IMG/VR virus record: IMGVR_UViG_3300009130_000012
Span: 1 to 64,000 of that record
From: a virus
DNA: 64,000 nt
Reading direction: 5' to 3' (one strand)
Shown here: positions 3,181-45,959 of the stretch, one piece after another
Numbering within the stretch: position 1 is the stretch's first letter
Layout: each line of letters starts with the position of its first letter
Program-made: the position numbers and the translations under genes
The notes under the pieces: generated by a model
The model's input: the letters and a program-made list of their open reading frames with translations, nothing else
Told to the model about the DNA's origin: nothing
The model's database searches: none

Positions 3181-3212
3181 CAAAGATATGGTAAAAGTTG
3201 CAAAAAAACAAA
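3181..3212 (-). promoter_or_regulatory. Host-type promoter for the microprotein transcript
   Basis: On the minus strand: TTTG at 3212-3209, a 20-nt spacer, and TATCTTTG at 3188-3181. Confidence 0.75.
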
Positions 3213-3814: not shown

Positions 3815-3982
3815 TTAAGACTTCAGATTTGAAATCATTAAATTCATACAAAGAAAGGTTATAGAACATTTCAATAAAAAAGTGGGAGCACCACCTTTAA
3901 CTATAAAGAACCCTAAATCTAAAACGGCGAAGGTAAATGCCATAATCGCTGTAAAGTCCATAAAATTTAATTTTCTTTTCAT
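3815..3982 (-). CDS. Small membrane protein downstream of the T9SS-like gene
   Basis: A 55-residue protein (MKRKLNFMDFTAIMAFTF...) with two hydrophobic segments, about residues 8-26 and 30-48, joined by a short VKGGAP turn. It follows the T9SS-like secreted-protein gene by 12 nt on the same strand and so is probably co-transcribed from the promoter at 4796-4826. A two-helix inner-membrane partner of an exported protein is a reasonable reading, but there is no recognisable family. Confidence 0.6.
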   Translation of the reverse strand: MKRKLNFMDFTAIMAFTFAVLDLGFFIVKGGAPTFLLKCSITFLCMNLMISNLKS

Positions 3983-3994
3983 AAGACTAAAATA

Positions 3995-4756
3995 TTATCT
4001 TAAAACTTTTTTAACCGACCCATCACTATAAACTTCTATTACCATACCGCTAAAATCGTCTTGAACTTTTTGTCCTAATAAGTCATATATAGCGATTAAT
4101 TTTACTTCTTCCTTTTCTTCAATTTTATTACAAAATAAAATATCAAAAAACTCTGTTGTACCGTCGTAATCAGTTTGGTAAAGTCTATAATATCCATTCT
4201 GAGTTATAGGATATTCGTAATTGGTTACTTCTTGTGTGTTTCCTTGACCATATATTTCCCCTTTAGATACCCAAGTTATTCCATCAGTAGAATACTCAAT
4301 AGTAAAATGACTATTATTAATTTCAGCCCCTGTAGACCAGTTAATGGTTTTATCATTGCAGCTAAGTTCTATAAGCTCCACTGGTAAGGGTTGAACACAA
4401 TTTATGTCAACATAAGATAAGTTACCTGCACTTAAATAACCGTTACTATATGGGTAACCTTGACTAAGGTTATTAATATCGGTACAATTATTACAATGTC
4501 TATTTATATCAATAGAGTTATAGTTACCAGTAAAAGCACCTCCTATGGTTAATTTGGAGTTACACCCTAAAAGATTAATAGTTCCATAATTTGTTAAATT
4601 ACCAGTTAAAGTTAATTCGACATTATCACTTATATTAATTTCACCACCACTTAGATTAATATATGTTGACCAAGTGGTATTACTGGTAATGTTAGTGGTT
4701 TGTGATTTAGATATTGAACACGTAAAAACCAATAATAATAGTATTAATTTTTTCAT
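3995..4756 (-). CDS. Secreted protein with a type IX secretion-like C-terminal sorting domain
   Basis: A 253-residue protein. Residues 1-18 are a classic signal peptide (MKKLILLLLVFTCSISKS), followed by a beta-rich region full of Asn, Thr and Gly. Residues about 124-210 match the flavobacterial module seen before T9SS signals: PLPVELIELSCNDKTINWST, INNSHFTIEYSTDGITW and YYRLYQTDYDGT. The last 40 residues resemble a type A T9SS sorting domain (IYDLLGQKVQ, then GMVIEVYSDGSVKKVLR). T9SS is found only in Bacteroidota and moves proteins across the outer membrane, so this phage gene may place a protein on or outside the infected cell. It reads from a host-type promoter. Likely acquired from a host. 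The exact cargo function is unknown. Confidence 0.75.
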   Translation of the reverse strand: MKKLILLLLVFTCSISKSQTTNITSNTTWSTYINLSGGEINISDNVELTLTGNLTNYGTINLLGCNSKLTIGGAFTGNYNSIDINRHCNNCTDINNLSQGYPYSNGYLSAGNLSYVDINCVQPLPVELIELSCNDKTINWSTGAEINNSHFTIEYSTDGITWVSKGEIYGQGNTQEVTNYEYPITQNGYYRLYQTDYDGTTEFFDILFCNKIEEKEEVKLIAIYDLLGQKVQDDFSGMVIEVYSDGSVKKVLR

Positions 4757-4795
4757 AATTGTTTTAATTAGCCGTTGGTAGTTTTATTATAAATA

Positions 4796-4826
4796 CAAAG
4801 ATACGGCATTAATTTTTATATTACAA
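4796..4826 (-). promoter_or_regulatory. Host-type promoter for the T9SS-like gene
   Basis: On the minus strand: TTG at 4826-4824, a 20-nt spacer, and TATCTTTG at 4803-4796. A TATTTAT (4795-4789) follows at once, so both promoter classes may overlap here. The ATG is 39 nt downstream. Confidence 0.75.
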
Positions 4827-5845: not shown

Positions 5846-6340
5846 GTGTCTAAATTTAAGTTAGCTATAATTGATGATGATATTGTAGATATTTGGTTAT
5901 ATGAAGAAATATTAATTTCAGCGTTTCCAGAATGTGAAGTTAATAAATTCTGCTCACTTGGTGACGTTAAAGATAGGTTACTAGAATTTAAACCAGATAT
6001 TATATTATTAGATTTTAATTTAAGTGATTCAACCGCTTTTGACGTTATAGAGTTTGTTAAACCTAAACTAGGTGAACTACCAATAATTGTAATAACTGGT
6101 GTAGAAGACAAAAGTATTATAACTAAATTATATGACGTAGGTATATATAATTATATTAAAAAAGATGTTACTAAAAATCTATTACCTAATGTTTTAAATA
6201 ATGCTGTATCTCAATATAACCTAAAATCTAGCGTTAGGATATTAAATAAGAGGTTGAAGATACAGAATTTCAATTTCAAATTATATGTATTATTATATTT
6301 GTTAATTACCGCATTTATTTTATATTTCATTCTAAAATAA
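5846..6340 (+). CDS. Membrane-anchored CheY-like receiver-domain protein
   Basis: A 164-residue protein read from a GTG. Residues 4-125 form a response-regulator receiver domain with all key positions: the acidic pocket IIDDD (D10-D12), the phosphoacceptor D56 in ILLDFNL, T84 in IVITG and K105 in YIKKD. There is no DNA-binding or enzymatic output domain. Instead, residues about 141-163 form one transmembrane helix (KLYVLLYLLITAFILYFILK). A phage-coded receiver held at the membrane could take phosphate from host histidine kinases or compete with host regulators. DHFR and small metabolic genes follow. Confidence 0.8.
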   Translation: MSKFKLAIIDDDIVDIWLYEEILISAFPECEVNKFCSLGDVKDRLLEFKPDIILLDFNLSDSTAFDVIEFVKPKLGELPIIVITGVEDKSIITKLYDVGIYNYIKKDVTKNLLPNVLNNAVSQYNLKSSVRILNKRLKIQNFNFKLYVLLYLLITAFILYFILK

Positions 6341-11248: not shown

Positions 11249-13717
11249 TTATTGTTTGAATGTTAATTTATCCGAATCTTTAGTATGGGTTACCTTTATT
11301 AGTTCGTCAGTATTAAAGGTGCCGTCAATAATCTTTTCAGCTAATACCACTTCTAGATGTCTATTAATTGCTCGTTTAATAGGTCTAGCCCCAAATTCTG
11401 AATCAAATCCCTCATCAACTAAGAATTTTATAGCGCTTGGATTAACTTTGATTTGGAATCCTTTATGCATTAACCTTTCCGACACCATTCTAACTTCATT
11501 AACGACTATCTTAGATATATCATCTTTTTTGAGAGAATTAAAGAACACTATTTCATCGATACGATTTATGAACTCTGGTGCGAAAACACCTTTCATTTCT
11601 TTCTCGATAATTTCTCTAACTCGATTATCCTCGTCGGCAACTCTAGATTTTGTGTCAAACCCTACTGAACTACCCGAATTCATAGCTTTTCTAACACCAG
11701 TGTTTGACGTCATCAAAATAATAGTGTTTTTGAAATTTATTTCTCTACCTAAACTATCTTTAATGTGACCATCATCCATAATTTGTAACATCATATTAAA
11801 TACATCTGGATGAGCTTTTTCAATTTCATCAAATAATACAACAGAATATGGTTTACGTCTAACTTTCTCAGTTAAATCCCCTCCAGATTCATAACCAACA
11901 TAACCAGGAGGTGCTCCAACTAATTTACTAACACTAAAACTTTCGTTGTATTCTGACATATCAACTCTAATTAATGCGTTTTCATCATTAAACATGTGTT
12001 TAGCTAACATCTTAGCTACTTGAGTTTTACCAACGCCAGTAGAGCCGATTAACATAAAGCTACCTACAGGTTTATTTGGATTACCTATACCTATTCTACC
12101 AACTTTAATAGCTGAGACAATCTTATTTATAGCTTCGTCTTGTCCTATAACATCTTTTTTAAGTAGTTTATCTAAATTAGAAATCTGTTTATTTTCAGAA
12201 ACACCCATTTTGGTTACTGGAACGCCACTAATTTGACTAACAATTTCTCTAATCTTTTCATCATCAACTACTCGTCTATTATTTTTAAGTTTGGATTCCC
12301 AATCCTTTCTTAATTTAGAAACTTTAGTCTTAAGTTTACTTTCTTTATCACGTAAAGAGGCGGCTTTTTCGTATTGTTGGGACTTGACAACTTTTAGTTT
12401 CTCGTCATTGACTTCACGAATTTCGTCCTCTAATCCAACTATATTTTTAGGTGTTGGGATATTCACTGAAGCTTTAGCTCCAGACTCGTCCAGTAAATCT
12501 ATTGCCTTATCTGGTAGGTGTCTATCTGTAATATACCTATGTGATAATTTAACACATTCTTCTATAGCCTCATCAGTATAATTAACAGCATGGAAATCTT
12601 CATACTTAGACTTAATGTTGTTAAGAATGAAAATAGCTTCATCCACTGATGGTTCTTCGATTTGAACTTTTTGAAATCTTCTGGTTAATGCCGCATCTTT
12701 TTCGATATTCTCACGATATTCATCTAATGTTGTCGCACCAATTACTTTAATTTCACCTCTAGCTAATGCTGGTTTTAAAATGTTAGCCGCATCTAAAGAC
12801 CCGCTAGTGCTACCAGCGCCAACAATCGTATGAATTTCATCGATAAATAGGATAATGTCATCATTATCTTCCAATTCCTTTACTAATCCTTGAATCCTTT
12901 CCTCAAATTGTCCTCTATATTTAGTTCCAGCAACCATGTTAGAGACATCCATCGAGTAAATTTCTTTACCTAACAACGTCCTTGGTGCAGTACCGTTAAT
13001 TATTTGCAATGCTAACCCTTCCACAATAGCAGATTTACCACAACCAGCAGGACCTACAATAATTGGATTGTGTTTTCTACGTCTAGCTAAAATAGTTATA
13101 ATCTCATTAATCTCTACATCTCTACCAATTACTGGGTCAATTTTTTGTTCTTTAGCCAATGTAGTTATATTTCTACATAAAGAATCTAATATCGGTGTTT
13201 TAGGTGAACCTTCTTTAGCAGTATTACGATTACGTCTTCTTTTTTTAGAGCTACCTTCATTAGGTTCCTCAATACTAGATTTAACTTCGTGGCTAGTACC
13301 ACCTAACTTTTCTCTCATATTGTCATAATTTATATTAAAGTTTTTCAAAAATTTACTTACGGATGAATCGAAATATAATATGGATGTTATAATGTGCGAA
13401 AATGACCCATAATCTAGACCTAATTCTTCAACCAAACTATGCGTATGGGCAAATACTTCCCTAACATCTTCATCTGGTATTACATTTTTAACTGTTAATG
13501 GACTATGATTTAATAAAGCGTTATTATAACAGAAATCGTGTAAACTATTAATATCCACACCATTTTCACTAAGGAAGTTTATTGCCTCAGTAATTTCGAA
13601 TTCGATTATTGTTAGTATTATATGTTCCAACATTAATTTTGGTGCACCGAATTGTTTAGCTTTTAAAACAGACTCACGCATCATTTCACTCACAATTCTA
13701 TCCATACCATTACTCAT
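11249..13717 (-). CDS. clpC: ClpC-type AAA+ protein unfoldase
   Basis: An 822-residue double-AAA+ ATPase. Residue numbers here count from the in-frame ATG at 13735; subtract 6 for the start chosen. It has a Clp N-domain (about 11-145), a basic linker, AAA1 with Walker A GPAGCGKS (228-235) and Walker B ILFIDE, a short middle domain with a UVR-like stretch (VVKSQQYEKAASLRDKESKL), and AAA2 with GSTGVGKT (564-571), VVLFDE and sensor 2 GARPIKR. The loop SSVGFD (VGF at 691-693) sits where ClpC/ClpA carry the ClpP-docking tripeptide. No phage ClpP is seen here, so it may dock on host ClpP. The host-type promoter places the ATG at 13717 as a leaderless start. Confidence 0.9.
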   Translation of the reverse strand: MSNGMDRIVSEMMRESVLKAKQFGAPKLMLEHIILTIIEFEITEAINFLSENGVDINSLHDFCYNNALLNHSPLTVKNVIPDEDVREVFAHTHSLVEELGLDYGSFSHIITSILYFDSSVSKFLKNFNINYDNMREKLGGTSHEVKSSIEEPNEGSSKKRRRNRNTAKEGSPKTPILDSLCRNITTLAKEQKIDPVIGRDVEINEIITILARRRKHNPIIVGPAGCGKSAIVEGLALQIINGTAPRTLLGKEIYSMDVSNMVAGTKYRGQFEERIQGLVKELEDNDDIILFIDEIHTIVGAGSTSGSLDAANILKPALARGEIKVIGATTLDEYRENIEKDAALTRRFQKVQIEEPSVDEAIFILNNIKSKYEDFHAVNYTDEAIEECVKLSHRYITDRHLPDKAIDLLDESGAKASVNIPTPKNIVGLEDEIREVNDEKLKVVKSQQYEKAASLRDKESKLKTKVSKLRKDWESKLKNNRRVVDDEKIREIVSQISGVPVTKMGVSENKQISNLDKLLKKDVIGQDEAINKIVSAIKVGRIGIGNPNKPVGSFMLIGSTGVGKTQVAKMLAKHMFNDENALIRVDMSEYNESFSVSKLVGAPPGYVGYESGGDLTEKVRRKPYSVVLFDEIEKAHPDVFNMMLQIMDDGHIKDSLGREINFKNTIILMTSNTGVRKAMNSGSSVGFDTKSRVADEDNRVREIIEKEMKGVFAPEFINRIDEIVFFNSLKKDDISKIVVNEVRMVSERLMHKGFQIKVNPSAIKFLVDEGFDSEFGARPIKRAINRHLEVVLAEKIIDGTFNTDELIKVTHTKDSDKLTFKQ

Positions 13718-13721
13718 GCCA

Positions 13722-13752
13722 CAAATATATGTCATTTTATCTAATACTCAAA
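13722..13752 (-). promoter_or_regulatory. Host-type promoter for the Clp gene, leaderless spacing
   Basis: On the minus strand: TTG at 13751-13749, a 19-nt spacer, and TATATTTG at 13729-13722. ATG 13717 is 4 nt beyond. It lies back to back with the plus-strand promoter at 13754. Confidence 0.8.
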
Positions 13753-34127: not shown

Positions 34128-34904
34128 TTACCCCTCATATGTAATACCTCTATCGTTATTGAAATAGTACTCCTTTTTAGCATGAGCAATCCACCAATTA
34201 TTTTCAACTGGGTTGATAGTGTCTTTATAAGAATCAAAAATCGACCCGTTTCTAAAATTAAGATGTTGGTAAGCAATCTTAGGAACTATTAAAATCTTTT
34301 CATTATTAAATGTATATCTTAATAAGAATTCATACATGAAAACTAACTTAATTGATGGTTTTAATCCACCCACATTTAAGTATGAGTCTTTTTTAACTAC
34401 CATACCAGCAAAATTAAAATTAGGATAATCTAATAATGCTGAGTTATCTAAATAACCCATAGGTACAATTTCGTTAAATCCTTGCGACCATGTTAATTGA
34501 TTGTTTAGTCCAGAGAATTTACCTTCAGCATCAACTTCGGCTACTATTGGCATAAACAAAGACACATCATCATATTCGGCAGCGTATTGCTGGAAATTAT
34601 CAATCCAAATTTTGGACATTAAGTCATCCATCTCTAAAAAACAAACAAACTCAGAACTCGCTTCAGAAACACCTTTGTTTAATTGGGATGCGAAATCGGT
34701 TGACCCTTCGTTAATAATTTCTTTTGTAATATCAGCAATTTTTTCTGGTACTAAACCATTAACACTAATACCTTCTGGATGAACCAATAATACCTCATTT
34801 GGTAATACTTTTTGTTCAGCTACACTAATTAAAGATTTCCCTAATAATTCACTAGTTTCATCATTAAGTTCGTGAATTGGGATTACTACACTTACTGTTT
34901 TCAT
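34128..34904 (-). CDS. Glycosyltransferase, GT-A fold (GT2-like)
   Basis: A 258-residue enzyme starting MKTVSVVIPIHELNDETSEL. The ATG at 34904 follows the upstream stop by one base and gives the usual GT2 N-terminus, so it is preferred over 34916. Motifs are the nucleotide-sugar strand VSVVIPIHE, ASSEFVCFLEMDDLMSKIWI with the metal-binding DD, and a GG-containing loop (KDSYLNVGGLKPSI). It transfers one sugar from an activated donor; substrate unknown. First of the glycan module, 3 nt from the sigma gene. Confidence 0.8.
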   Translation of the reverse strand: MKTVSVVIPIHELNDETSELLGKSLISVAEQKVLPNEVLLVHPEGISVNGLVPEKIADITKEIINEGSTDFASQLNKGVSEASSEFVCFLEMDDLMSKIWIDNFQQYAAEYDDVSLFMPIVAEVDAEGKFSGLNNQLTWSQGFNEIVPMGYLDNSALLDYPNFNFAGMVVKKDSYLNVGGLKPSIKLVFMYEFLLRYTFNNEKILIVPKIAYQHLNFRNGSIFDSYKDTINPVENNWWIAHAKKEYYFNNDRGITYEG

Positions 34905-34905
34905 A

Positions 34906-35991
34906 TTATTTTGCATTTTCTAACATAATTTCAATCTCTTTCTTTCTATCCTCAACTAACTGAGTGAATACTGTTGTTAAAACATCTTTTTGTTTAGCTG
35001 AAGTATATTTACCTTTTTCCGCATCCATCTTTTCCAATAAATCTGCTGGTACGTTATCTTCTAACCAAGAATGTAAGTATTTAGCCATCATATCTGGTAT
35101 TTCAGACACTTTATTAACCCAAAGAATGAAATCTTTAAGTGTTTCAGCACCTTCTTCAGTAGGTTCACCAACACCCCAAGGTGGAGTTTCGGTAGGTAAC
35201 TTAGCAATAACAGGTGTATTACACTCGATAGACTCTAATGGGAATGTTCCAAAAGTAGCTACATCATCAACCCAAACTGTTAAACAGCTCTTATCTACGA
35301 TTTCAGCTAAATTTTCTTGCGATAACCCTCTTAAGTCTCTAAAAGATACCCAGCTAAAGATTGGGTGTTTTAATAAGAATGATGAAATAATCTTCTTAAT
35401 ATCGCCTTGGTCTCTAGATAGTATAGATACTATAGGTTGTTTTAATTTAGTATCTGCTTTAAACTTATCCGAAATTACTGGTGGAACTACAGATATTTTA
35501 GCTGACGGAAATAAATCATTAATTCTAGCACTAGCTTTATCTGATGTAGTAATAACATCATTAAATCCGTAAGTTGACCAATATGTTTTGAATTTAAGTA
35601 ATTCAAAAATATCTTCAATAGATTGACATAATACGATGTTTTTTGATGGGGTATTTTGTTTTCTTAATTCCTCCATTACGTTTGCGAAAACTTCTGGAAC
35701 AATTACAAAATCCTCAGCTTTAATTTGTAAATCACCACCTTCGATACAAGTATGTGGTAGGTCTTTATACTCTTCACCTAACCAAGTAGCTGGGTGCGAA
35801 GCAACATAATCGGCTTTATCATGTAAAACCTTTGCGTTATAACCTAAATCATTTAGGTTTTTAACCATTTCGTAAGTGTTAGCAACACTTGCCACTGGAT
35901 TACCTTTTGTATCTCTAGTGTAAAAATAGATTGAGAAATTTTTACTATCTAATTTCTCGATTAACTCTTTTGCGATTTTCTCTTTACTCAT
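34906..35991 (-). CDS. Glycosyltransferase-like protein, GT-B fold
   Basis: A 361-residue protein. Two Rossmann-like halves are visible: an N-terminal NFSIYFYTRDTKGNPVASVA, then a C-terminal part with VSILSRDQGDIKKIISSFLL, CLTVWVDDVATFGTFPLESI and ECNTPVIAKLP. The E-x7-E type region (GTFPLESIECNTPV) is the donor-binding signature of GT4-like enzymes. It is co-transcribed with the GT2-like gene downstream. Confidence 0.75.
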   Translation of the reverse strand: MSKEKIAKELIEKLDSKNFSIYFYTRDTKGNPVASVANTYEMVKNLNDLGYNAKVLHDKADYVASHPATWLGEEYKDLPHTCIEGGDLQIKAEDFVIVPEVFANVMEELRKQNTPSKNIVLCQSIEDIFELLKFKTYWSTYGFNDVITTSDKASARINDLFPSAKISVVPPVISDKFKADTKLKQPIVSILSRDQGDIKKIISSFLLKHPIFSWVSFRDLRGLSQENLAEIVDKSCLTVWVDDVATFGTFPLESIECNTPVIAKLPTETPPWGVGEPTEEGAETLKDFILWVNKVSEIPDMMAKYLHSWLEDNVPADLLEKMDAEKGKYTSAKQKDVLTTVFTQLVEDRKKEIEIMLENAK

Positions 35992-36011
35992 GTTTGTTAA
36001 TATAAAAATAT

Positions 36012-36338
36012 TTATGTTTTAATAATTAATCCGTATTCGTCTAATGTGTCATAAGCACATTGCACATTAACTGGTGCGTTTTCTATGATTTGGTCAATAT
36101 TACCATCCATATCATCTAACGGCTCAGATAAATAAGTCATAAGTGTTTGCATCATAGCTAACACTAATTCATATCTAGGTGAATTTAATTCTAATGAAGG
36201 TCTGTATTTTCGTACTCTTTTAAAGGTTTTACCTTCCTCATCTACAGATTCTTCAAATTCATTCATATACCCATCTTTATCCGTATTGTTGGGTGTTAAT
36301 AACACTTCATCTAGTTTTTCTAAATCAAATCTAATCAT
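36012..36338 (-). CDS. Hypothetical acidic protein
   Basis: A 108-residue protein (MIRFDLEKLDEVLLTPNNTD...) with an acidic centre and a helical second half (YELVLAMMQTLMTYLSEPLD). It overlaps the stop of the HAD-like gene by one base. No domain recognised. Possibly tail- or head-associated, but it lies among enzymatic genes. Confidence 0.6.
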   Translation of the reverse strand: MIRFDLEKLDEVLLTPNNTDKDGYMNEFEESVDEEGKTFKRVRKYRPSLELNSPRYELVLAMMQTLMTYLSEPLDDMDGNIDQIIENAPVNVQCAYDTLDEYGLIIKT

Positions 36339-36940
36339 TAAGCGTTTACATTATTTAAAATTTCATCTCTTAATTCTTCATTATCAGTAAAGTCGATAAT
36401 GTTATCTATAACAAAATCTGCTTCAGTTTCTTTATTATAAGTTGTTTTAACCTTAACTGATATTTTACCTTCTGGTCTTGATTCCAATGTTTTTGGGTGT
36501 GCTCCGATTACCATATCAACATCATCCCAAAGATTTTCATATTGAGTGTAAAACTTGATTGTCTTTATTTTAGTGGATAATTTAGATAAGAAAAATAAAG
36601 TGGATGGACAACTTAAATTAGCTTCTCTACTGATAAGCCATATTTCATGTTCTTCATCCTCCAATAAATCTAAATTAAGTGCATTTAGTTTAGTTATGGA
36701 ATGTTCATGTAATTCTGGAGCTAAACCATTAATCTCCATAGCCGCTTGAGTATATAGATAGTCGTTAAAAGAGTTAACATCTTTAAACAAGAAATACTCG
36801 TGAAAGTTATGGTCGGTGATTGGATTTTCTTCTAAATCAATTCCCTTTTCTTCATTAGGTAATTCATATTTAGAATAAACTTCAGCAAATCTACCAGTAA
36901 AGTTTCTAATTACATCATTTATTTCTACACCAATAATCAT
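36338..36940 (-). CDS. Degenerate HAD-like protein
   Basis: A 200-residue protein. The start MIIGVEINDVIRNFTGRFAE resembles the IGIDIDGVLADF start of HAD-family 5'-nucleotidases, but the first catalytic Asp is replaced by Glu (VEIND). A later IWLISREA strand replaces the usual T/S motif II, and DVDMVIGAHPKTLES is near motif III/IV. It may therefore be an inactive or altered phosphatase fold. The assignment is a structural guess. Confidence 0.5.
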   Translation of the reverse strand: MIIGVEINDVIRNFTGRFAEVYSKYELPNEEKGIDLEENPITDHNFHEYFLFKDVNSFNDYLYTQAAMEINGLAPELHEHSITKLNALNLDLLEDEEHEIWLISREANLSCPSTLFFLSKLSTKIKTIKFYTQYENLWDDVDMVIGAHPKTLESRPEGKISVKVKTTYNKETEADFVIDNIIDFTDNEELRDEILNNVNA

Positions 36941-36981
36941 AAAAAAAGTCTTATATTTAATATAATAAACATAAGACTTTT
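36941..36981 (-). terminator. Rho-independent terminator after phoH
   Basis: AAAAGTCTTAT / ATAAGACTTTT stem read on the minus strand. The T-tail abuts the ATG of the HAD-like gene, so initiation there may need read-through. Confidence 0.75.
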
Positions 36982-37003
36982 AATTTTAAATAATATTATA
37001 GTA

Positions 37004-37726
37004 TTATTTGTATCTTTTTAAAATTTCAGTGATTATTGGGTTTCTAACTATATCAGCTTCAGTAAATTTATGAATAGCTACTTTATCTAAATTTGTTAAT
37101 CTGTGAATCATATCGAACAATCCACTATCCTCAACGTTTTTATATTTATCTGATTGGTCAATATCCCCAGTAATTATAAATTTACTATATTCACCAATTC
37201 TAGTTAATAGAGTTTTCATTTCTAAAGGTGTAGCATTTTGAGATTCGTCCATAATTAATATTGCGTTATCTATCGTTTTACCTCTAATAAACGATAGTGG
37301 TTGAAACTCTATTATTTCTTTCTCCATCAATTCAATTCTCTTCTCTTTACCGACAATCTTATCAATGTTGTCTAATAAAGGTAACATATAAGGCATTAAT
37401 TTTTCTTGTAACGTACCAGGTATGAAACCTAATGATTTACCAGTTTCTACCGCTGGTCTACTAATCCATATCTTTTCGTATTTAGTGGTTTTTTGTTTAA
37501 CTAATTTAAGTGCTTGACCTACAGCTAAATATGTCTTACCACACCCTGCGGCACCAGAACATATAGTAATTTCATTATCTTTAATTTTTTGTATGAAATC
37601 TATTTGACTATCATTCTTAGCTTTAATACTTATATTAGATGTCATAATATTACTAATTAAGTCTTTTGGACTAAAAAAATCTTCATAACTTAAATCTTTT
37701 TTACTGACATTTCTTCTTTTACTCAT
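37004..37726 (-). CDS. phoH: PhoH-like ATPase
   Basis: A 240-residue P-loop ATPase with Walker A SGAAGCGKTYLAVG (57-70), the segment WISRPAVETGKSLGFIPGTL, Walker B AILIMDESQNATPLEMK and TRIGEYSKFIITGDIDQSD. PhoH proteins are common in marine and T4-type phages; their substrate is thought to be RNA, with the exact role unclear. A 4-base overlap with the upstream gene indicates translational coupling. Confidence 0.9.
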   Translation of the reverse strand: MSKRRNVSKKDLSYEDFFSPKDLISNIMTSNISIKAKNDSQIDFIQKIKDNEITICSGAAGCGKTYLAVGQALKLVKQKTTKYEKIWISRPAVETGKSLGFIPGTLQEKLMPYMLPLLDNIDKIVGKEKRIELMEKEIIEFQPLSFIRGKTIDNAILIMDESQNATPLEMKTLLTRIGEYSKFIITGDIDQSDKYKNVEDSGLFDMIHRLTNLDKVAIHKFTEADIVRNPIITEILKRYK

Positions 37727-38607
37727 GTTTTTGCTTCTTTATTTTCATAACGCTTATCCAAGTCATGGTCAATGAACGATTCAATAACATTCCTACCGTC
37801 TATAATAGGTTTCGCTAAAAACTTAACTACGTAATGTGATTTATAATCTACTATAGAGTGAAAACGGGATATTTCATAAGTATACTCCAATAAATCTGAA
37901 ACACCTTTGTCCTCGTTAGTAATAAAACTTATATTCTCGATATCTAGCATATCCACCATTCTTGGTCTAGACTTAGCTTTTTCAATCTCTTTAATTAAAA
38001 ACTTTGTCCTTTTGTCATAAATATCTTCGTAACGACTAATATATAACTCCAGAAGAACATTTTTTTCCTCATTTTCTCTAACTACCAGAAACTCAGTATA
38101 GTCTTCTATCCTAAATTTAGGTAAAAATTGTCCTCGACTAACACCAATACGTCTATTCGATTTAGACATCTGATTAACTTCAGTTAAAGTATATTCTTCT
38201 TTAGTTAAATCCATATCATTAAACCCTAACTCAATGCGTTCATTATTAATCCACATTTTAAGTGGAAATAATTCATTATCAGTCATATCAATATCTAGAC
38301 CACTTAATTCACGAATTAAAGTAGTATTAGTAGTTTCTAAAATAGGGTAACCTTCATCATCGTAGCCAATGATTTTACTATTTTTAAGTTTAGTATGGTA
38401 TAAAATTTTATACATTCTCCAACGTAACTCTTTTACTTGTTGGGTTACTTCACCTCGCATCAAATCGTCAGCTAATTTACCTTCATTAATGTTTAAAGTT
38501 AATGATATTCCATCACCAAAATCTTCGTTAGGTGTTAACACTTTTTTTTCGGTCAAATATAATGAGACCATTAATCCAGTTATAAATTTTCTTAATTTAC
38601 TTAACAT
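37723..38607 (-). CDS. Hypothetical protein upstream of phoH
   Basis: A 294-residue soluble alpha/beta protein (MLSKLRKFITGLMVSLYLTE...). No membrane span except a weak N-terminal hydrophobic stretch. Segments such as LKNSKIIGYDDEGYPILETT and ISRYEDIYDKRTKFLIKEIE are not recognised. Such a protein occurs next to structural genes in other T4-type phages, but I cannot name it. Overlaps phoH by 4 bases and the fucosyltransferase-like gene by 11. Confidence 0.6.
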   Translation of the reverse strand: MLSKLRKFITGLMVSLYLTEKKVLTPNEDFGDGISLTLNINEGKLADDLMRGEVTQQVKELRWRMYKILYHTKLKNSKIIGYDDEGYPILETTNTTLIRELSGLDIDMTDNELFPLKMWINNERIELGFNDMDLTKEEYTLTEVNQMSKSNRRIGVSRGQFLPKFRIEDYTEFLVVRENEEKNVLLELYISRYEDIYDKRTKFLIKEIEKAKSRPRMVDMLDIENISFITNEDKGVSDLLEYTYEISRFHSIVDYKSHYVVKFLAKPIIDGRNVIESFIDHDLDKRYENKEAKT

Positions 38608-39322
38608 GTAATTTCATTTGTTTATATTTAGCAGTACATTTACCCATCCACCATTGCATTTCTGAAAAACTACTCAGTCCAGTACCATATATTTTTTTAG
38701 CCATACCACCTAATATTAAATCTATCAAAATATCTTGCATACCAACTACCGATTGGAAGTCACCAAACTTAGTTCTTTTAGGTGTTGTTATTACTTTATC
38801 ACCATACCTACCCTTTATTAAGTGCAACGTATCAGTATCATCGCAAGTCAATAAAAAAGAACTGTCAATAGTATCTAACTCAGTGAAAAGTAAATTAATG
38901 TCAAAATACTGCCCCCAAGACTTATATTCCTGTGGGAAAGACTTAAAAGTCCTAACGCTGACAGTGGTATAATCTGAGGGTAATTCATTATGTAATCTTT
39001 TCACCTCATCTTGGACGTACTGTACTGGGTTTAGGTCATTTATAATGTCGATATACTTTTTTTGCATCTCAACATCTACATCCTCCTTATTATTGTCAGT
39101 CGGATTATGCGTATTCATATAGTCATGTATGAATTTACAATCGCTAATAGTGCGATTAGATGTGCTATTAAATGTATTAGTAAATAGGTCACTAAATTGA
39201 CACCTAACACCACCTCCGCTATTAGGTACGTCCCATCTAAGTGTAATATCACCATATTCTGCAATAGCTGATATAATACACTTTAATCTATTAGATATTC
39301 CTCCGAATGGTATTACTATCAT
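38597..39322 (-). CDS. Fucosyltransferase-like protein
   Basis: A 241-residue protein. MIVIPFGGISNRLKCIISAI resembles the GGLGNRL motif of alpha-1,2/alpha-1,6 fucosyltransferases (GT11/GT23-type, NodZ). TTVSVRTFKSFP may replace the HIRRTD nucleotide-binding strand, and GLSSFSEMQWWMG is at the place of the conserved serine-rich motif near the end. It would add fucose or a related sugar from a GDP donor. Overlaps the gene before it by 4 bases. Confidence 0.65.
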   Translation of the reverse strand: MIVIPFGGISNRLKCIISAIAEYGDITLRWDVPNSGGGVRCQFSDLFTNTFNSTSNRTISDCKFIHDYMNTHNPTDNNKEDVDVEMQKKYIDIINDLNPVQYVQDEVKRLHNELPSDYTTVSVRTFKSFPQEYKSWGQYFDINLLFTELDTIDSSFLLTCDDTDTLHLIKGRYGDKVITTPKRTKFGDFQSVVGMQDILIDLILGGMAKKIYGTGLSSFSEMQWWMGKCTAKYKQMKLHVK

Positions 39323-39996
39323 AGTTCAATCTTTTTATATTCTCTATGGTAACTTCTAATATTATTACCTATAAATGGGTCCCATATTGAGCCGAAGTCA
39401 ATCATCCAACACTTATTGCCAATCACGTCATATAATTCATCTACTATCGCATTAGTCATCATAGATGCTGATAACCCAAAAACTACATTATCGTATTTTT
39501 CAGTCATCGCAATCATATCATTTTTAATCCTATCTTTTTCTAAGTAACAATTTACTTTAGGTATCTCAATAAAATCGATATACTTAATCGGTAAATCTCG
39601 CTTACTAGCTTCAGAAACAATTACAAAATTCATATTCCCTAATGTGTCGGTAAGTTCATTAATATCTTCTCTAATAACTAAATCTTCCCAAACTATAGCA
39701 TTCACCCAATTAACGTCAATTTCGTTAGTTTTAAGGTAGTTTTGTATCAATGGTAGATTTCTTTGTATCTGACCATGAGTTGTGGGCCATACGGCTTTAT
39801 AATAACCTTTATTATTTTTAAGGGCTTTTTGTAAATCACTGGACATTTCTGGGAAATATCTATGACCGTCACAATTCTGACCGTTAACTCCTACTGTACA
39901 AAACCATTCACCATCACCCCATCTGGTAAATGAAAAATATTCACCATTTTTTAGTTTATTTATATAAAACTGAGCGTTATTATCTTCTTTAATCAT
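39319..39996 (-). CDS. GT-D-type glycosyltransferase (DUF1792-like)
   Basis: A 225-residue protein. FSFTRWGDGEWFCTVG carries the DGE motif of the GT-D fold, the third glycosyltransferase fold first described in the SP_1767/GtfC family. The ending FGLSASMMTNAIVDELYDVI and CWMIDFGSIWDPF fits the IDIGS strand of DUF1792. These enzymes extend glycans on protein adhesins. ATGA overlap with the GNAT gene upstream. Confidence 0.7.
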   Translation of the reverse strand: MIKEDNNAQFYINKLKNGEYFSFTRWGDGEWFCTVGVNGQNCDGHRYFPEMSSDLQKALKNNKGYYKAVWPTTHGQIQRNLPLIQNYLKTNEIDVNWVNAIVWEDLVIREDINELTDTLGNMNFVIVSEASKRDLPIKYIDFIEIPKVNCYLEKDRIKNDMIAMTEKYDNVVFGLSASMMTNAIVDELYDVIGNKCWMIDFGSIWDPFIGNNIRSYHREYKKIEL

Positions 39997-40433
39997 AAGT
40001 CTAATTTCATTTTAATAGAATTAGTGTTATTATATAATTCAGAACTAACTTCTACAAACCCTAATTTATTATAGATATGTTTAGCTCTAATATTAGTCTC
40101 TAAGACTTCCAAATATACTCTTCTTACATTAAATTCAACCATTAATTTATTAAAAAGTTTAGGGTAGAATTTTTGACTATATCCATTATCCCTAAATTCG
40201 GTTGCTATGTCCATACCAACATATGGTTCATTAGATTCCCAATTAGAAGTTCTAATATACCCTATCCTTTCATCGTCAACTAACATTATAAAAAAAGGGT
40301 CATTTAAAGTATTAAACCATTTGATGTTATCTTCAAGTGTATACTTAGTGTTATCATGTAGAAAATCCACACTTTCATTGCGTACCCTATTAAAGAATTT
40401 TATGTCATTAATATTCATTAATCTTATTTCCAT
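39993..40433 (-). CDS. GNAT acetyltransferase
   Basis: A 146-residue acetyl-CoA-dependent N-acetyltransferase. The acceptor region DPFFIMLVDDERIGYIRTSN, the core GMDIATEFRDNGYSQKFYPK (acetyl-CoA loop, a variant of RGKGYG) and the VLETNIRAKHIYNKLGFVEV strand-helix are typical of the RimJ/PseH branch. In this context it probably acetylates the amino sugar made by the DegT-type aminotransferase, as PseH/QdtC-type enzymes do. Confidence 0.85.
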   Translation of the reverse strand: MEIRLMNINDIKFFNRVRNESVDFLHDNTKYTLEDNIKWFNTLNDPFFIMLVDDERIGYIRTSNWESNEPYVGMDIATEFRDNGYSQKFYPKLFNKLMVEFNVRRVYLEVLETNIRAKHIYNKLGFVEVSSELYNNTNSIKMKLDL

Positions 40434-41221
40434 AATTCAATCGATTTATCTATTAATTGATTATAATCGTTAAACCCATAAATATTAGCCCCCGATAATA
40501 GTTTTAACCAAGAACCTGTTTTCCATACACCTCTATTAGTCGAATTACAGTTAGGATGATTGTATATTAATAAATCACCACCAAAATATGCTGGTATTAC
40601 ACAATCACCCGCTGGTGATATATGATGTTCTGAATTAGCCAGTATTTTAAATTGTAATTCGTTATAAGATTTATAATCACCTTTATTGAATAATTCCTCA
40701 ATAGTAAGTACTTCTTTATGTTTATCCAATATCCTATTGTCTCCAATATCCACAGTTTTCTGTAATGTATCTTTAGTCATATTACTATTTTCATAGAACG
40801 GTTTAATATAAATTATCTGATAATCAGTTTTAAACATATCGATTAATTTATCTAACGTATCTGCATCAAAATAGTTAAATAATCCTCTCTGCCATTCTAT
40901 CGAGTTTTTATTATGGATGGTTAATATAGGTTTATCAAAAAGTAACTCATCATTCTTAAAATATTCTTTAAGTTTAGGAGGAGTCCACATCTCATTAGTA
41001 AACCTAGGATTATTAAATGAATAACAATTAAGTTGCTCAGAAAATAAAGTACCATCATGTTTATCCGTCTCAGTATGGTTAGGTGAGAAATAAAATAAAG
41101 GTTCTGTACCTAACCTACTCTCAGTGCTACTTAATAAACCCTTTTCAAATAAAGCATAAGCTTTAGGTAAATAATACATTAATATAAATCCAAATTCTTT
41201 ATGAGTGTTTAGATTATACAT
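40424..41221 (-). CDS. Hypothetical glycan-module protein, possible GT-B transferase
   Basis: A 265-residue protein (MYNLNTHKEFGFILMYYLPK...). LLFDKPILTIHNKNSIEWQR, YQIIYIKPFYENSNM and EHHISPAGDCVIPAYFGGDL suggest Rossmann strands of a GT-B-like or capsule-related enzyme, but no signature is decisive. It overlaps the GNAT gene by 10 bases and follows a GT-A-type transferase, so a glycan role is likely from context. Confidence 0.55.
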   Translation of the reverse strand: MYNLNTHKEFGFILMYYLPKAYALFEKGLLSSTESRLGTEPLFYFSPNHTETDKHDGTLFSEQLNCYSFNNPRFTNEMWTPPKLKEYFKNDELLFDKPILTIHNKNSIEWQRGLFNYFDADTLDKLIDMFKTDYQIIYIKPFYENSNMTKDTLQKTVDIGDNRILDKHKEVLTIEELFNKGDYKSYNELQFKILANSEHHISPAGDCVIPAYFGGDLLIYNHPNCNSTNRGVWKTGSWLKLLSGANIYGFNDYNQLIDKSIELWK

Positions 41222-41222
41222 A

Positions 41223-41897
41223 TTACTTAATAGGTTTAATTAAAGTAATACCGTTTTTATTACCGTAAACCAAATCACGTCTAACCTCTAAAAAAATAGT
41301 GTTATATTTATCAGTAATGTCGTTAAATTTAGGTTCAATTAACTTTAAAAATGTAACTTGACACGACCCGAACCCCGCATAACACTTATCTTTTTGTAAC
41401 TGGAATAATCTACCGTGTTTGTTAATAGTGTTTTCAACAATAGAATTATTTAATAATCCGTTAGAAATACTAGCATGACCATTATTAAAATATGATGCGG
41501 TATAATTAGCATCTTCTGAGTTCATTTTATTTAAAAATGGGGTAATGATATCATCAATATTAGGAATATAATCGTCCTCAATCAAAAAACTATGTGTATA
41601 GTCTTTATATGTATCGGTGATAGCTTGTTCCCATGCACCATAAGAACCATGAATATTCTCCCTAACAATTAACTTCACAGGTATTTTACTTACTTTCTTG
41701 AAGTCATTTATTTCAGACGCTAACTGATTATCCATAGCCGAATTACCCTTATTTATAATAAATGTACATCCTGTTATATTTTTAGCTGTGGTTAGATAAT
41801 CTATATGTTCTTTTAAATAAGAAAGAGCAGGTACCCCATTAGGGTATGACCTCCTCTTACCAGTGTAAAATGCTACTACGTAATTAATACTAGTCAT
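41223..41897 (-). CDS. Glycosyltransferase, GT-A-like
   Basis: A 224-residue protein. The ATG at 41897 overlaps the stop of the aminotransferase gene (TAATG) and is preferred over 41903. TSINYVVAFYTGKRRSYPNG is the first strand, YGAWEQAITDTYKDYTHSFL and IEDDYIPNIDD supply the DxD-like metal site, and the end is short. A sugar transferase acting with the aminotransferase made just before it. Confidence 0.7.
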   Translation of the reverse strand: MTSINYVVAFYTGKRRSYPNGVPALSYLKEHIDYLTTAKNITGCTFIINKGNSAMDNQLASEINDFKKVSKIPVKLIVRENIHGSYGAWEQAITDTYKDYTHSFLIEDDYIPNIDDIITPFLNKMNSEDANYTASYFNNGHASISNGLLNNSIVENTINKHGRLFQLQKDKCYAGFGSCQVTFLKLIEPKFNDITDKYNTIFLEVRRDLVYGNKNGITLIKPIK

Positions 41898-43084
41898 TAC
41901 CAACCCTTTTTAATTACATCTACAATATATTGTCTATCCTCTTCGGATACCCACCATCCAACGGGAATTGCAGTCAATCTTCCTTTAATTGAATCTAGAC
42001 TAGGTAAATCACTCCTAAAATCAACTAAACAACTATGAATATCATTTCTCTCGTGAACCTGTGACGTGGCAATACCATGTTTCTTCATGTGTTCCGTGAA
42101 TTTATCTTTATCATCAACCAATAATGAGTAAATCCAGTAAGCCGATTCCATCCTATCATCACGTTTTAATAACGTAACACCATGTACGTCTTTAAGTGCT
42201 TCGTCATAGAATTTACCATTAGATTTGTGTTTATTTATGACATTTTCTTCCACCTCAGCTAAATTAGCCATACCAATGGATGCGTTAACGTCATTCATAT
42301 GAAATTTAAAACCCCATTCTGGAATATCAGCTTCACATCTGAAATCTTTTCTATCGGACTCCCTATCAATACCATACCATCTTAATAATTTAGCACGTCT
42401 ATATAGTTCGGCGTGTGGTAACACTAACGCACCTCCATCTACAGAAGTAAGGTGTTTAATCGCTTGGAAACTAAAAGTACAAATATTACCGTGAGTCCCA
42501 ATTTTTTTACCATTAAATTTACTACCCAACGCATGTGCACAATCTTCGATAATCGCTGGTTTAAATCCGAAATTTCTATAAGCTTTATTCTGAATCTCTT
42601 TTAGTCTATCTAAATCTAACGGATAACCACCCCAGTGCACTACAAAAATAACTTTAGTTTTAGGGGTGATTTTTCTAGCTAAATCATCTAAATCCATGTT
42701 AAGTGTATTTGGGTCAATATCCACCCACTTAATTTTTAGATTGTTAGCTAAAATAGGAAAATTAGTGGCTGTGCAAGTTAATGGCGTAGCTAACACTTCA
42801 TCACCATCTACTAACCCATCCCAATTAGATTGGATACTACCTAACCCATCGAAAGTTCTTCGATTAGTTGCTGGGGTTTTTAACATATGTAATGCTAAAT
42901 GTTCTGCAGATGTGGCGGCATTAGTTGTTGCAACATAATCATTACCAAAAAAATCCTTTAATTTATCCTCGAATTGGTCTACTATTGTTCCTTGACCAAT
43001 AAACCCAGATTCTAATACCTTTGCAGACACTTCTGTAGCTTTGTCTGACATATAAACCTTAAAAAGTGGTATGTTCTTTTTCAT
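41897..43084 (-). CDS. Sugar aminotransferase, DegT/DnrJ/EryC1 family
   Basis: A 395-residue PLP enzyme that puts an amino group on a nucleotide-linked keto-sugar. Motifs: TNAATSAEHLALHML (phosphate-binding turn), VIFVVHWGGYPLDLDRL, AIIEDCAHALGSKFNGKKIG (D181 holds the pyridine N), and FSFQAIKHLTSVDGGALV with the Schiff-base K210. Length is normal. With the GNAT enzyme it would make an N-acetylated amino deoxy-sugar, and the neighbouring transferases would attach it. No dehydratase or epimerase gene is visible, so the keto-sugar must come from the host or from genes outside the window. Confidence 0.92.
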   Translation of the reverse strand: MKKNIPLFKVYMSDKATEVSAKVLESGFIGQGTIVDQFEDKLKDFFGNDYVATTNAATSAEHLALHMLKTPATNRRTFDGLGSIQSNWDGLVDGDEVLATPLTCTATNFPILANNLKIKWVDIDPNTLNMDLDDLARKITPKTKVIFVVHWGGYPLDLDRLKEIQNKAYRNFGFKPAIIEDCAHALGSKFNGKKIGTHGNICTFSFQAIKHLTSVDGGALVLPHAELYRRAKLLRWYGIDRESDRKDFRCEADIPEWGFKFHMNDVNASIGMANLAEVEENVINKHKSNGKFYDEALKDVHGVTLLKRDDRMESAYWIYSLLVDDKDKFTEHMKKHGIATSQVHERNDIHSCLVDFRSDLPSLDSIKGRLTAIPVGWWVSEEDRQYIVDVIKKGW

Positions 43085-43090
43085 ATCTAT

Positions 43091-44746
43091 TTATTTATTA
43101 TAAGTTTTAATATAAAGTTCTTTGTATTTTAATACATTTTTATTATTATCGAAGATACTCATATCTTTAGGTACTTCCATAGTTTCTTTAGATAACATCT
43201 TACCTTCTTTATCTACTTGATAGATAATACCAGGTCTACCACATAAGAACCCTTCTATTGTAGTTCTACCTAATAGTATACCCGCAGTTTTATCACATTT
43301 ATAATAGAATTCTTCTATATTTTCCGTAGGTGGAAAATATCTAACATTATCATAAGTATTTGAGAATTCAATACCATACCCCAATGTATCTTTACCTAAT
43401 AACCAAATCTCTTGTTCATCCGAATTACTAGTATTTATTAAATCTAATATACTTTCTTTTCTTAAATAATCCATAGTACCAGCGAATAAAATAACTTCCT
43501 TATCGGTACCTTTATCTAAGCTCTTATTGGTAAATCTACCCTTATCGAAAAAGTTGTAAATAGTTTCCACGTTATTTTCAGACACATTAAAGTTATCAAC
43601 AATATAATCCTTAATTGATGGTCTAATCGCAACATATTGTTTAATATTATTGTGAATTACAGGATTTTCTAAATCAATCACTTCAGAACGTACAATATTT
43701 AAAATAGGTGTCTTAGGATATAATTGAAGTAATCTCTGAGTAATTGGAGTATGATTAGCATGTATTACGTCAAAATTCACATTACTTACTTGGTATAACA
43801 TTCCTTGTTTAGAAACTTCCACTTTACCTCCTCTATTAATAGTCCATTTACCATCACCTAATTTAAACCCAGGTGGTTCATTAATACTACAGGTTTTAAT
43901 ACCATAACGCTTCGCAATTGTTGCGAATTTAGACCCTACGTTAGATACTACCGTAACCTCACAATTATTTTTGCTTAATTCTTTAGCTAGTTCCATAGTA
44001 GATATCTCAGAACCAGTCAGTCCATTAAAATTTAAGCAGCCAATTAACAGCTTTAATTTCTTGTTAGAGAAGTCTTCTGATATTTTTCTAGGTAACACAT
44101 TACTATATCTATTAACAAAATCCTTTCTATTTTCATCCCACTGTTCATTAGTGGCACCTATAGACATATGATTAATTTTAACGTCGGTACATACACCTAC
44201 CTTAACACCAGCTAAATGATTGGAAAAGCTAAAGTCTACATCGTAAAAGTGAAACCCTTTTACATCTTCGTTAAACTTCTTCTTAATTCTACCAGTGTGT
44301 ACTGAAAAAAACACTCCGTCAACTAATGTAACCTCTTCTAAGTTAGACCCTAAATCTTCACTATATTCAGACAACCAAGTCTTTCCGTTTTGTGTATGAT
44401 AAACTCTACCGTACATTTTAGATGGTGTTTCCCACCATTTACCAGATTCGGGCATTTCCTTACTACCAGCCACTCCGATAACACCATAATCTGGATTACG
44501 TTTAAAATGTTTAATTAATTTATTAACCCAGTTATTTTTTTTAAACTCAATATCGTCATGCATAAAAATGACTATCTCATTTTCAGCCTCACTTAATGCT
44601 TTGTTGTATAACTCAGTTAACCCATATTTACCTTTATTTTCATAATGTAAAAACTGAATTTTATTTTCGGGTAGTCCACCAGACCTAATTACGTAATTTT
44701 TAAAATTACTATCTGGATTTATTGATGAGCAAACTATTGTTATCAT
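43091..44746 (-). CDS. Two-domain glycosyltransferase, GT2 plus GT4
   Basis: A 551-residue fusion. Residues 1-215 are a GT-A domain (MITIVCSSINPDSNFKNYVI; EIVIFMHDDIEFKKNNW with the DD metal site; VTLVDGVFFSVHTGRI). Residues about 230-551 are a GT-B, GT4-type domain (KLLIGCLNFNGLTGSEISTM; SVINEPPGFKLGDG-like acceptor region; EVILFAGTMDYLRKESILDL; and the late TTIEGFLCGRPGI donor loop with the EG signature). It could add two sugars in a row. It has a late-type motif 30 nt upstream and starts this transcription unit. Confidence 0.85.
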   Translation of the reverse strand: MITIVCSSINPDSNFKNYVIRSGGLPENKIQFLHYENKGKYGLTELYNKALSEAENEIVIFMHDDIEFKKNNWVNKLIKHFKRNPDYGVIGVAGSKEMPESGKWWETPSKMYGRVYHTQNGKTWLSEYSEDLGSNLEEVTLVDGVFFSVHTGRIKKKFNEDVKGFHFYDVDFSFSNHLAGVKVGVCTDVKINHMSIGATNEQWDENRKDFVNRYSNVLPRKISEDFSNKKLKLLIGCLNFNGLTGSEISTMELAKELSKNNCEVTVVSNVGSKFATIAKRYGIKTCSINEPPGFKLGDGKWTINRGGKVEVSKQGMLYQVSNVNFDVIHANHTPITQRLLQLYPKTPILNIVRSEVIDLENPVIHNNIKQYVAIRPSIKDYIVDNFNVSENNVETIYNFFDKGRFTNKSLDKGTDKEVILFAGTMDYLRKESILDLINTSNSDEQEIWLLGKDTLGYGIEFSNTYDNVRYFPPTENIEEFYYKCDKTAGILLGRTTIEGFLCGRPGIIYQVDKEGKMLSKETMEVPKDMSIFDNNKNVLKYKELYIKTYNK

Positions 44747-44776
44747 AATTATAATATATTAATAACGAAAAAGTTT

Positions 44777-44783
44777 ATAAATA
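44777..44783 (-). promoter_or_regulatory. Late-type motif TATTTAT for the glycan operon
   Basis: TTATTTATAAACTTTTTCG on the minus strand, 30 nt before the ATG at 44746, directly behind the dUTPase terminator. Confidence 0.45.
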
Positions 44784-44802
44784 AAAAACCCACCGAAGTG
44801 GG
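44783..44802 (-). terminator. Rho-independent terminator after dut
   Basis: CCCAC-TTCG-GTGGG hairpin with a TTCG tetraloop and T6 on the minus strand. Confidence 0.85.
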
Positions 44803-44824
44803 CCAAAAAAAGAATAAATATAAA

Positions 44825-45379
44825 TTAACTTACACCAGTTGAACCAAATCCACCAGAACCTCTATCTGTGTCTAGACTAATCTCATCCACCTTCTTTAAT
44901 ATTAATACATTGTCGTTAGTTACTGGTGATAATACAGCTTGTGCAATCCTATCTCCATGATTAACGGTAAATTCATCTTTACTTAAATTAACTAAGATAA
45001 CTTTTAATTCTCCTCGGTAAAGATTATCTACAGTTCCTGGAGTATTTAATACTGTAACACCGTTCTTAGCAGCTAATCCACTACGAGGTCTAACTTGTAA
45101 TTCGAAATTAGGAGGTAACTCAAAATATAATCCAGTTGGTACTAAAGCTCTTTCTAATGAGCCTAATGTGATTGATTCACTTAAATTAGCTCTTAAATCA
45201 AATCCAGAATCACCTTCTTTAGCATATTTAGGGTCTTCATTATCAGATTCGTTTTTAAACTTAACATCTAATTTAAATGCTCCTGCATTACCTAAGTTTA
45301 ACGAATCCATTTCTTTAACCACATCATCTACAGACATTTCTCCAGAGATGATTTTTTCTGCAATTTCATTATTTTTCAT
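44825..45379 (-). CDS. dut: dUTPase
   Basis: Hydrolyses dUTP to dUMP, keeping uracil out of DNA and feeding thymidylate synthase. The 184-residue product has the five trimeric-dUTPase motifs: GDSGFDLRA, RPRSGLAAKNGVTVLNTPG, TVDNLYRGE, GDRIAQAVL and DRGSGGFGSTG. About 38 N-terminal residues (MKNNEIAEKIISGEMSVDDV...) precede the fold and are not part of the standard enzyme. ATG 45379 is preferred over 45418, as it gives an 11-base overlap with the upstream gene. Confidence 0.92.
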   Translation of the reverse strand: MKNNEIAEKIISGEMSVDDVVKEMDSLNLGNAGAFKLDVKFKNESDNEDPKYAKEGDSGFDLRANLSESITLGSLERALVPTGLYFELPPNFELQVRPRSGLAAKNGVTVLNTPGTVDNLYRGELKVILVNLSKDEFTVNHGDRIAQAVLSPVTNDNVLILKKVDEISLDTDRGSGGFGSTGVS

Positions 45380-45911
45380 ACTCAAACATAGTTCTTTTAA
45401 TAGCATCTCTAATTGCAATAGTTAATGCACTATCATAATGTTTCTCAGCATCATCCAACGATACTAATGTAGAGAATTCTTCATCTGTTAACGAAATACC
45501 GTTATCTATAACAAATTTAGCTGATTTACTACCCATACCCATAGATACATCTGATTTAGCATACTTAAATAACTGTCCTTTCTGAATCAACCAGTCTTGT
45601 GTTTCTGGTTCATACATCATATGCTTACTAATCTGATAAATCAAACTTACTTTGGCTAAAGTGTTTTTATTTATTTTGGCTGGATGACCGTCATCAATAG
45701 CTTCGTTTAGCTTAATCGCCATCGTAGTGAACTTAGTAATAAATTGCACTAACCCACCTTCGTAGCAACCAAATTTAATACTAGCTGGAGACTTAACGAG
45801 TTTATCACCCATTTTTATGATAATATCATCATTAATAGCTCCGTAAGACATAGCTAATTTAACAAAGGTTCTAGCCGACTTACTTATTTGTTCTTTAGTT
45901 AATACTTCCAT
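45369..45911 (-). CDS. Hypothetical protein upstream of dut
   Basis: A 180-residue helical protein (MEVLTKEQISKSARTFVKLA...). YGAINDDIIIKMGDKLVKSP, DDGHPAKINKNTLAKVSLIY and SKHMMYEPETQDWLIQKGQL give a long helical pattern, with no clear metal or nucleotide site. Expressed from the host-type promoter at 45929-45959 and coupled to dut, so perhaps involved in nucleotide metabolism or early takeover. Confidence 0.65.
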   Translation of the reverse strand: MEVLTKEQISKSARTFVKLAMSYGAINDDIIIKMGDKLVKSPASIKFGCYEGGLVQFITKFTTMAIKLNEAIDDGHPAKINKNTLAKVSLIYQISKHMMYEPETQDWLIQKGQLFKYAKSDVSMGMGSKSAKFVIDNGISLTDEEFSTLVSLDDAEKHYDSALTIAIRDAIKRTMFEYEK

Positions 45912-45928
45912 ATTTATATCGTTTATTA

Positions 45929-45959
45929 CAAATATACTATCTTAAACAATATGGAACAA
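45929..45959 (-). promoter_or_regulatory. Host-type promoter for the dut operon
   Basis: On the minus strand: TTG at 45959-45957, a 20-nt spacer, and TATATTTG at 45936-45929. The ATG at 45911 is 17 nt beyond. Confidence 0.8.

Follow-up and report, generated by a model that had tools for sequence, protein, structure and literature searches.

T9SS sorting domains have been reported near crAss-BACON ORFs of gut phages (de Jonge et al. 2019, PMC6949934), and Cryophage genomes carry T9SS type A cargo genes, for which hijacking of the host T9SS and superinfection exclusion have been proposed (Bellas et al. 2020, PMC7468147). The statement in the first-pass annotation of this DNA that no phage use of T9SS had been described is therefore out of date. 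In cellular cargo, short T9SS C-terminal sorting domains (CTDs) have been described from Prevotella intermedia, where they are cleaved, glycosylated and can be modelled onto PorV like the long ones; this is the only species reported to have both short and long CTDs (Ye et al. 2025, PMC11969387). Here we compare with these systems a gene from an uncultured T4-like phage. We consider its product likely to be a cargo protein that the phage makes for the host T9SS, and we infer from its layout and its relatives that the protein is exported and anchored in a T9SS-dependent manner and has a role at the cell surface.

The DNA analysed (the window) comprises the first 64 kb of a 100,844 bp IMG/VR virus record (G000), which was identified as a T4-like myovirus from matches to terminase, portal, major head protein, tail sheath and DNA polymerase. 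Among cultured phages, Flavobacterium phage immuto has the closest terminase, at 31% identity. The putative cargo gene and a 55-aa ORF downstream of it form a minus-strand block amid mostly plus-strand genes, and the region contains the following features (positions are those of the window):

3815..3982, minus strand: gene for a 55-aa membrane protein with two predicted hydrophobic segments.

3995..4756, minus strand: whole coding sequence of a 253-aa secreted, T9SS-cargo-like protein.

3998..4105, minus strand: predicted short C-terminal sorting domain, residues 218-253.

4130..4387, minus strand: Fn3-like module, residues 124-209, LPVEL...YYRLYQTDYDGT.

4403..4702, minus strand: N-terminal passenger, residues 19-118, beta-solenoid-like with short strands and a Cys-rich end.

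4703..4756, minus strand: signal peptide, residues 1-18, MKKLILLLLVFTCSISKS followed by Q.

4788..4796, minus strand: phage-wide promoter-like motif GTATTTATA, 40 bp upstream of the cargo start codon.

4796..4826, minus strand: Bacteroidota-type promoter-like site TTG-N20-TATCTTTG.

The 253-aa ORF starts with ATG and its translation contains, as the first-pass annotation had described, a signal peptide, an LPVEL module and a C-terminus running from IYDLLGQ to KKVLR. We found a full-length homologue with 65% identity (L002) in the viral contig 3300025276_000033 (G020). Comparison of the two genes gave a dN of 0.29 and a dS of 1.52 (ratio ~0.19 over 251 codons), which together with the homologue itself indicates that the ORF is under selection and did not arise by chance. 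L002 also has the six cysteines of the mature protein, all at the same positions. The small membrane-protein gene which had also been noted behind the cargo gene is the 55-aa two-helix ORF, separated from it by a gap of 12 bp. Contig G020 apparently belongs to another large tailed phage, and only five of its genes are common to G000 at E < 1e-4; the closest pairs are the secreted protein (65%) and the 55-aa protein (62%), followed by thymidylate synthase (57%). The homologues of the cargo and 55-aa genes lie near each other in G020, with two genes intervening. That these two show the highest identities, when only three other shared genes can be detected, points to a transferable two-gene unit. 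Besides the G020 homologue, no other relative of the 55-aa protein was found in viral contigs or phage records. In another phage group (L029, L042, L046, L049 and L052) a 60-64 aa two-helix membrane protein, which resembles the 55-aa partner in type, is encoded near a short-tailed cargo gene, directly after it in four of the five.

Several other genes of this phage are also worthy of note. At 11249-13735 on the minus strand lies a gene for a ClpA/ClpC-like subunit of an ATP-dependent protease (828 aa; phrog_4871, 808 bits). The 164-aa protein at 5846-6340 on the plus strand appears from its sequence to consist of a response-regulator receiver domain with a transmembrane segment at the C-terminus, and has weak PHROG matches to families of unknown function. 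A minus-strand block at about 34128-47174, including an aminotransferase (phrog_3139) and a glycosyltransferase (phrog_7162, host takeover class), is possibly a surface-glycan or DNA-sugar module. Genes opening with VDWTGVTNDTYFYDKATDLP and variants of it, found in the window at 51723-52304 and 62881-64000 and in the record at 80601, 83488 and 85704, are likely to encode paralogous tail or fibre proteins.

The signal peptide of the cargo protein has a K/R n-region and a hydrophobic core (hydropathy 3.2), and ends in SKS with predicted cleavage before Q19, a residue which is conserved in at least 90%. A signal-peptide-like N-terminus was present in 35 of 41 distinct viral relatives and an xQ (S|Q-type) cleavage site in 36. 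In the AlphaFold2 model a strand recurs every 5-10 residues in the passenger, with pLDDT 62-83 over residues 11-90, and no enzyme signature was found in it. The Fn3-like module was modelled with pLDDT 92-98 and its residues Y189, Y190 and G199 are invariant in viral and cellular relatives. The tail which follows contains three motifs, B (IYDLLGQ, with G228), D (SGMVIEV, with G237) and E (KKVLR), and three strands at residues 220-224, 238-243 and 248-252 (pLDDT 95-98). A second model, of the relative L026, again showed a short tail, with strands at 192-197, 210-216 and 221-226 plus a short one at 181-184. G228 is invariant and G237 is conserved in at least 90%, at a spacing of 9, and K/R occurs within the last ten residues in 59 of 60 distinct tails. 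With the single cargo protein as query, there was no significant match in Pfam, in PHROGs or by phmmer in the PDB. Foldseek against the PDB gave generic Fn3/Ig matches to the middle module only, the tail being too small to be found alone.

The first-pass annotation had looked to the T9SS sorting-domain models TIGR04183 and TIGR04131 to decide on its proposal, and on this count the proposal failed. The window protein did not match TIGR04183 (cut-off 23 bits) at E ≤ 10, either in the G000 search or by hmmscan, nor TIGR04131, the type B model for a CTD of about 100 residues, in the NCBIfam scan at E ≤ 10. It also did not match PF18962, and none of the short-tailed relatives scanned reached the TIGR04183 cut-off. 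The tail, a short, three-stranded CTD of only about 36-40 residues, is missed by the TIGR models. The core of the proposal, that the phage makes a T9SS cargo, was supported by other evidence, including the resemblance of the tail to short CTDs and its exchange for a recognised sorting domain. As in short T9SS CTDs, the tail has three strands, Gly in motifs B and D, a basic motif E and a short B-D spacing; it does not have their GxY or GxN in motif D, which is GMV in the window protein and is GxY in 11 of the 60 tails and mostly GxV/GxI. A profile of the tail scored 17.9 against the type A CTD profile, versus at most 12.2 for 100 column-shuffled profiles, although this similarity is modest, with a probability of 21%. 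In a profile search of the PDB, the C-terminus of 7jvi (E 0.04) and a chain of 8glj with the title 'Por secretion system C-terminal sorting domain' (E 0.4) ranked first and second of 177,635, both of them weak matches.

The best evidence of what the tail does is its interchange with canonical T9SS domains at one phage locus. The tail of L060 matches TIGR04183 at 26.6 bits (cut-off 23), and this locus is syntenic with those of the short-tailed L038 and L040: the adjoining 129-aa protein is 96-98% identical and five neighbour families are found in order. L057 and L064 also have TIGR04183 tails next to the same 129-aa protein family. As short and TIGR04183 tails alternate at one locus in near-identical phages, they seem to be functionally equivalent and to do the same job. 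Taken together, the structure resembling a short CTD, the B-D-E order with the type A profile similarity and this natural swap indicate that the tail is probably a T9SS signal.

We examined the spread of the tail in viruses and cells. An alignment search of viral contigs gave 57 loci, and 58 viral proteins were classified by tail. Short tails, which extend 49-61 residues beyond the Fn3 YYRL...DG motif, were found in 48 of the 58 (43 distinct) and long tails in 10. In the best 80 cellular hits to the same query, 17 tails were short and 61 long (78 classified). After clustering of tails at 60% identity the ratio of short to long was 25:3 for viral and 13:55 for cellular proteins (Fisher p about 1e-10, with kinship among phages and host sampling uncontrolled); this contrast is conservative, since a list of the best 80 cellular hits leans to short tails. 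The passengers of the viral relatives include MAM, CUB, P-domain, PKD and G8 modules, and a signal peptide, a varied passenger and a constant C-terminus in 43 distinct viral proteins correspond to the layout of T9SS cargo. Close matches in BFVD were proteins of uncultured phages that bear the names 'CUB domain' and 'Putative Fn3-like protein', and a weaker match was named 'Secretion system C-terminal sorting domain'. No isolate phage with the Fn3/tail module was found among 50,697 phage records, and four uncultured huge phages carry the module, one of them (LR756500) with a TIGR04183 tail. In G029 and G030, the contigs of L027 and L028, the terminase frame is broken within the match by two TGA and one TAA, which suggests an intron or other insertion.

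With a profile built from the viral tails, the tail was found at E ≤ 1e-6 in 15 of 295 sampled genomes from the class of a Fluviicola bin. The Fn3 module and the short tail also occur at true chromosomal loci in cellular genomes, with neighbours including pyruvate dehydrogenase E2, FtsA, LptF/G and a tRNA methyltransferase, and we rejected the explanation that the cellular short tails are all misbinned phage DNA. All 14 cellular genomes with the short tail have SprA and 63-150 or more TIGR04183 hits (Prochlorococcus bin excluded). SprA was absent from G000 and from five other phages searched, and the idea that the phage supplies its own translocon was rejected. It should also be noted that a contig from a Prochlorococcus single-cell genome (L071) carries a short-tailed cargo gene; as this gene is of Bacteroidota type and the genome has no SprA, the contig is probably phage contamination of the assembly.

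The lack of a match to any curated T9SS sorting model, the difference of motif D from the published short CTD and the weakness of the profile similarity to type A tails would also fit a protein which is exported by Sec only and remains periplasmic, for instance for a late action on the envelope, with the tail as a small beta-hairpin cap. We consider this unlikely: such a cap would not be expected to interchange with TIGR04183 tails, or to recur in identical type on varied passengers, the cellular owners of the tail are all rich in T9SS cargo, and the tail fits the published three-stranded CTD architecture (PMC11969387).

Upstream of the cargo gene, the consensus host promoter described in the first-pass annotation is present as the site TTG-N20-TATCTTTG, which lends that description little weight: the genome has 3 such sites against 0.55 expected, the largest number in a shuffle being 4, and the site is not conserved in relatives, being absent upstream of the L002 homologue. 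A looser TAnnTTTG was found in 1 of 45 viral cargo upstreams versus 12.7% in controls. The TTG-N20-TATCTTTG site occurs again, identically spaced, at 3181-3211 on the minus strand, upstream of a cluster of four tRNAs (Trp, Glu, Tyr and Asp; 1464-2866). A different motif, (A/C)TATTTATA, occurs 23 times in the sense and 7 times in the antisense direction in 104 upstream regions of G000, terminase included, and ATATTTAT occurs 18 times in sense versus 3 in antisense in 36 viral cargo upstreams. Sense-strand copies of TATTTATA stand before the cargo gene as well as before terminase and further structural genes. The (A/C)TATTTATA motif is found 11-50 bp upstream of about 21 genes (e.g. 18819, 49521, 55643, 72837, 77699 and 93736) and corresponds to the T4 late promoter TATAAATA read as its reverse complement. 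These Bacteroidota T4-like phages may use it as their promoter. A cargo gene is no more than four genes from the major capsid gene in seven relatives, the capsid proteins of which are 52-56% identical to that of G000; this proximity and the TATTTATA motif upstream suggest that the cargo is expressed from phage promoters, perhaps late.

The same proximity to the capsid gene in T4-like relatives, the motif held in common with structural genes and the Fn3/Ig-like module could also indicate that the protein decorates the virion and is not a cargo of the infected cell. The model for this would be T4 Hoc, with its Ig-like capsid domains, which like the window protein combines an Ig/Fn3-like module with an origin in a T4-like phage. 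T4 Hoc, however, is not known to have either a signal peptide or a sorting domain. A capsid protein would have no need of the conserved C-terminal motifs, the signal peptide and S|Q-type site recur in most relatives, six cysteines are conserved, and in G000 the cargo gene is far from the structural genes; we therefore regard a role in decoration as very improbable. That the phage holds a useless bacterial gene acquired by chance, as the chromosomal copies of module and tail might suggest, is hardly credible given the low dN/dS, the recurrence in many lineages of phages, in which the preferred type of tail is the reverse of that in cells, and the fact that a distant phage has kept the gene together with that for the 55-aa protein.

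As a T9SS cargo, the protein would enter the periplasm via its Sec signal peptide and fold there with disulfides. Its three-stranded minimal CTD would be recognised by the host translocon SprA and presumably by the PorV shuttle, and the protein would end outside the infected cell, cleaved and probably bound to surface polysaccharide. The beta-solenoid/Fn3 passenger could then serve for adhesion or masking at the cell surface, for example by blocking the adsorption of other phages, and the 55-aa membrane protein may belong to the same cassette as a partner or accessory. An adhesin or mask is favoured because the passengers of the relatives are binding domains rather than enzymes and the window passenger has no enzyme signature. 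Judged by passenger type only, a role in exclusion or adhesion is the likeliest function but in itself a tentative proposal, somewhat more doubtful than not. A late surface protein would suit superinfection exclusion or the prevention of re-adsorption of progeny.

A broader reading, for which we see nearly even chances, is that Bacteroidota phages have widely settled on a minimal three-stranded T9SS signal and coat infected cells by means of exchangeable cassettes, a route that would have gone mostly unseen because the curated models miss the signal. If so, many phages of T9SS-bearing Bacteroidota place proteins of their own on the surface of the infected cell, and annotation pipelines miss most such proteins, as TIGR04183 and PF18962 are blind to the short tail. 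The tail is also a candidate for a compact natural secretion tag of about 36-50 residues from outside Prevotella, and it offers a way to probe phage control of the host surface, including exclusion of other phages and adhesion.

In comparison with known systems, the phage tail is like the short CTDs of P. intermedia in that it forms three beta-strands, spans about 40-55 residues and has a basic motif E and an invariant Gly in each of motifs B and D, and the cargo proteins of both have a signal peptide and beta-helical or adhesin passengers. Unlike those CTDs, which were compared by their published description, the tail is encoded by T4-like and other phages and its motif D is mostly GxV/GxI. 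It shares with the T9SS type A domain (TIGR04183/PF18962) the order of motifs B, D and E at the extreme C-terminus, but the type A domain has seven strands over about 72 positions where the phage tail has three, and at one and the same phage locus a type A tail stands in for the short one (L060 vs L038/L040). The Cryophage and crAss-BACON cases are alike with ours in that Bacteroidota phages encode T9SS cargo. However, their domains (type A in Cryophage) are picked up by standard annotation and are found on enzymes, PA14 or BACON proteins, whereas in our case the tail is short and missed by the standard models, a membrane gene is paired with the cargo gene, and there is evidence that tails are exchanged. 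Phage T9SS cargo as a general idea is thus not new; what is new is the minimal, phage-favoured signal and the evidence from the swap.
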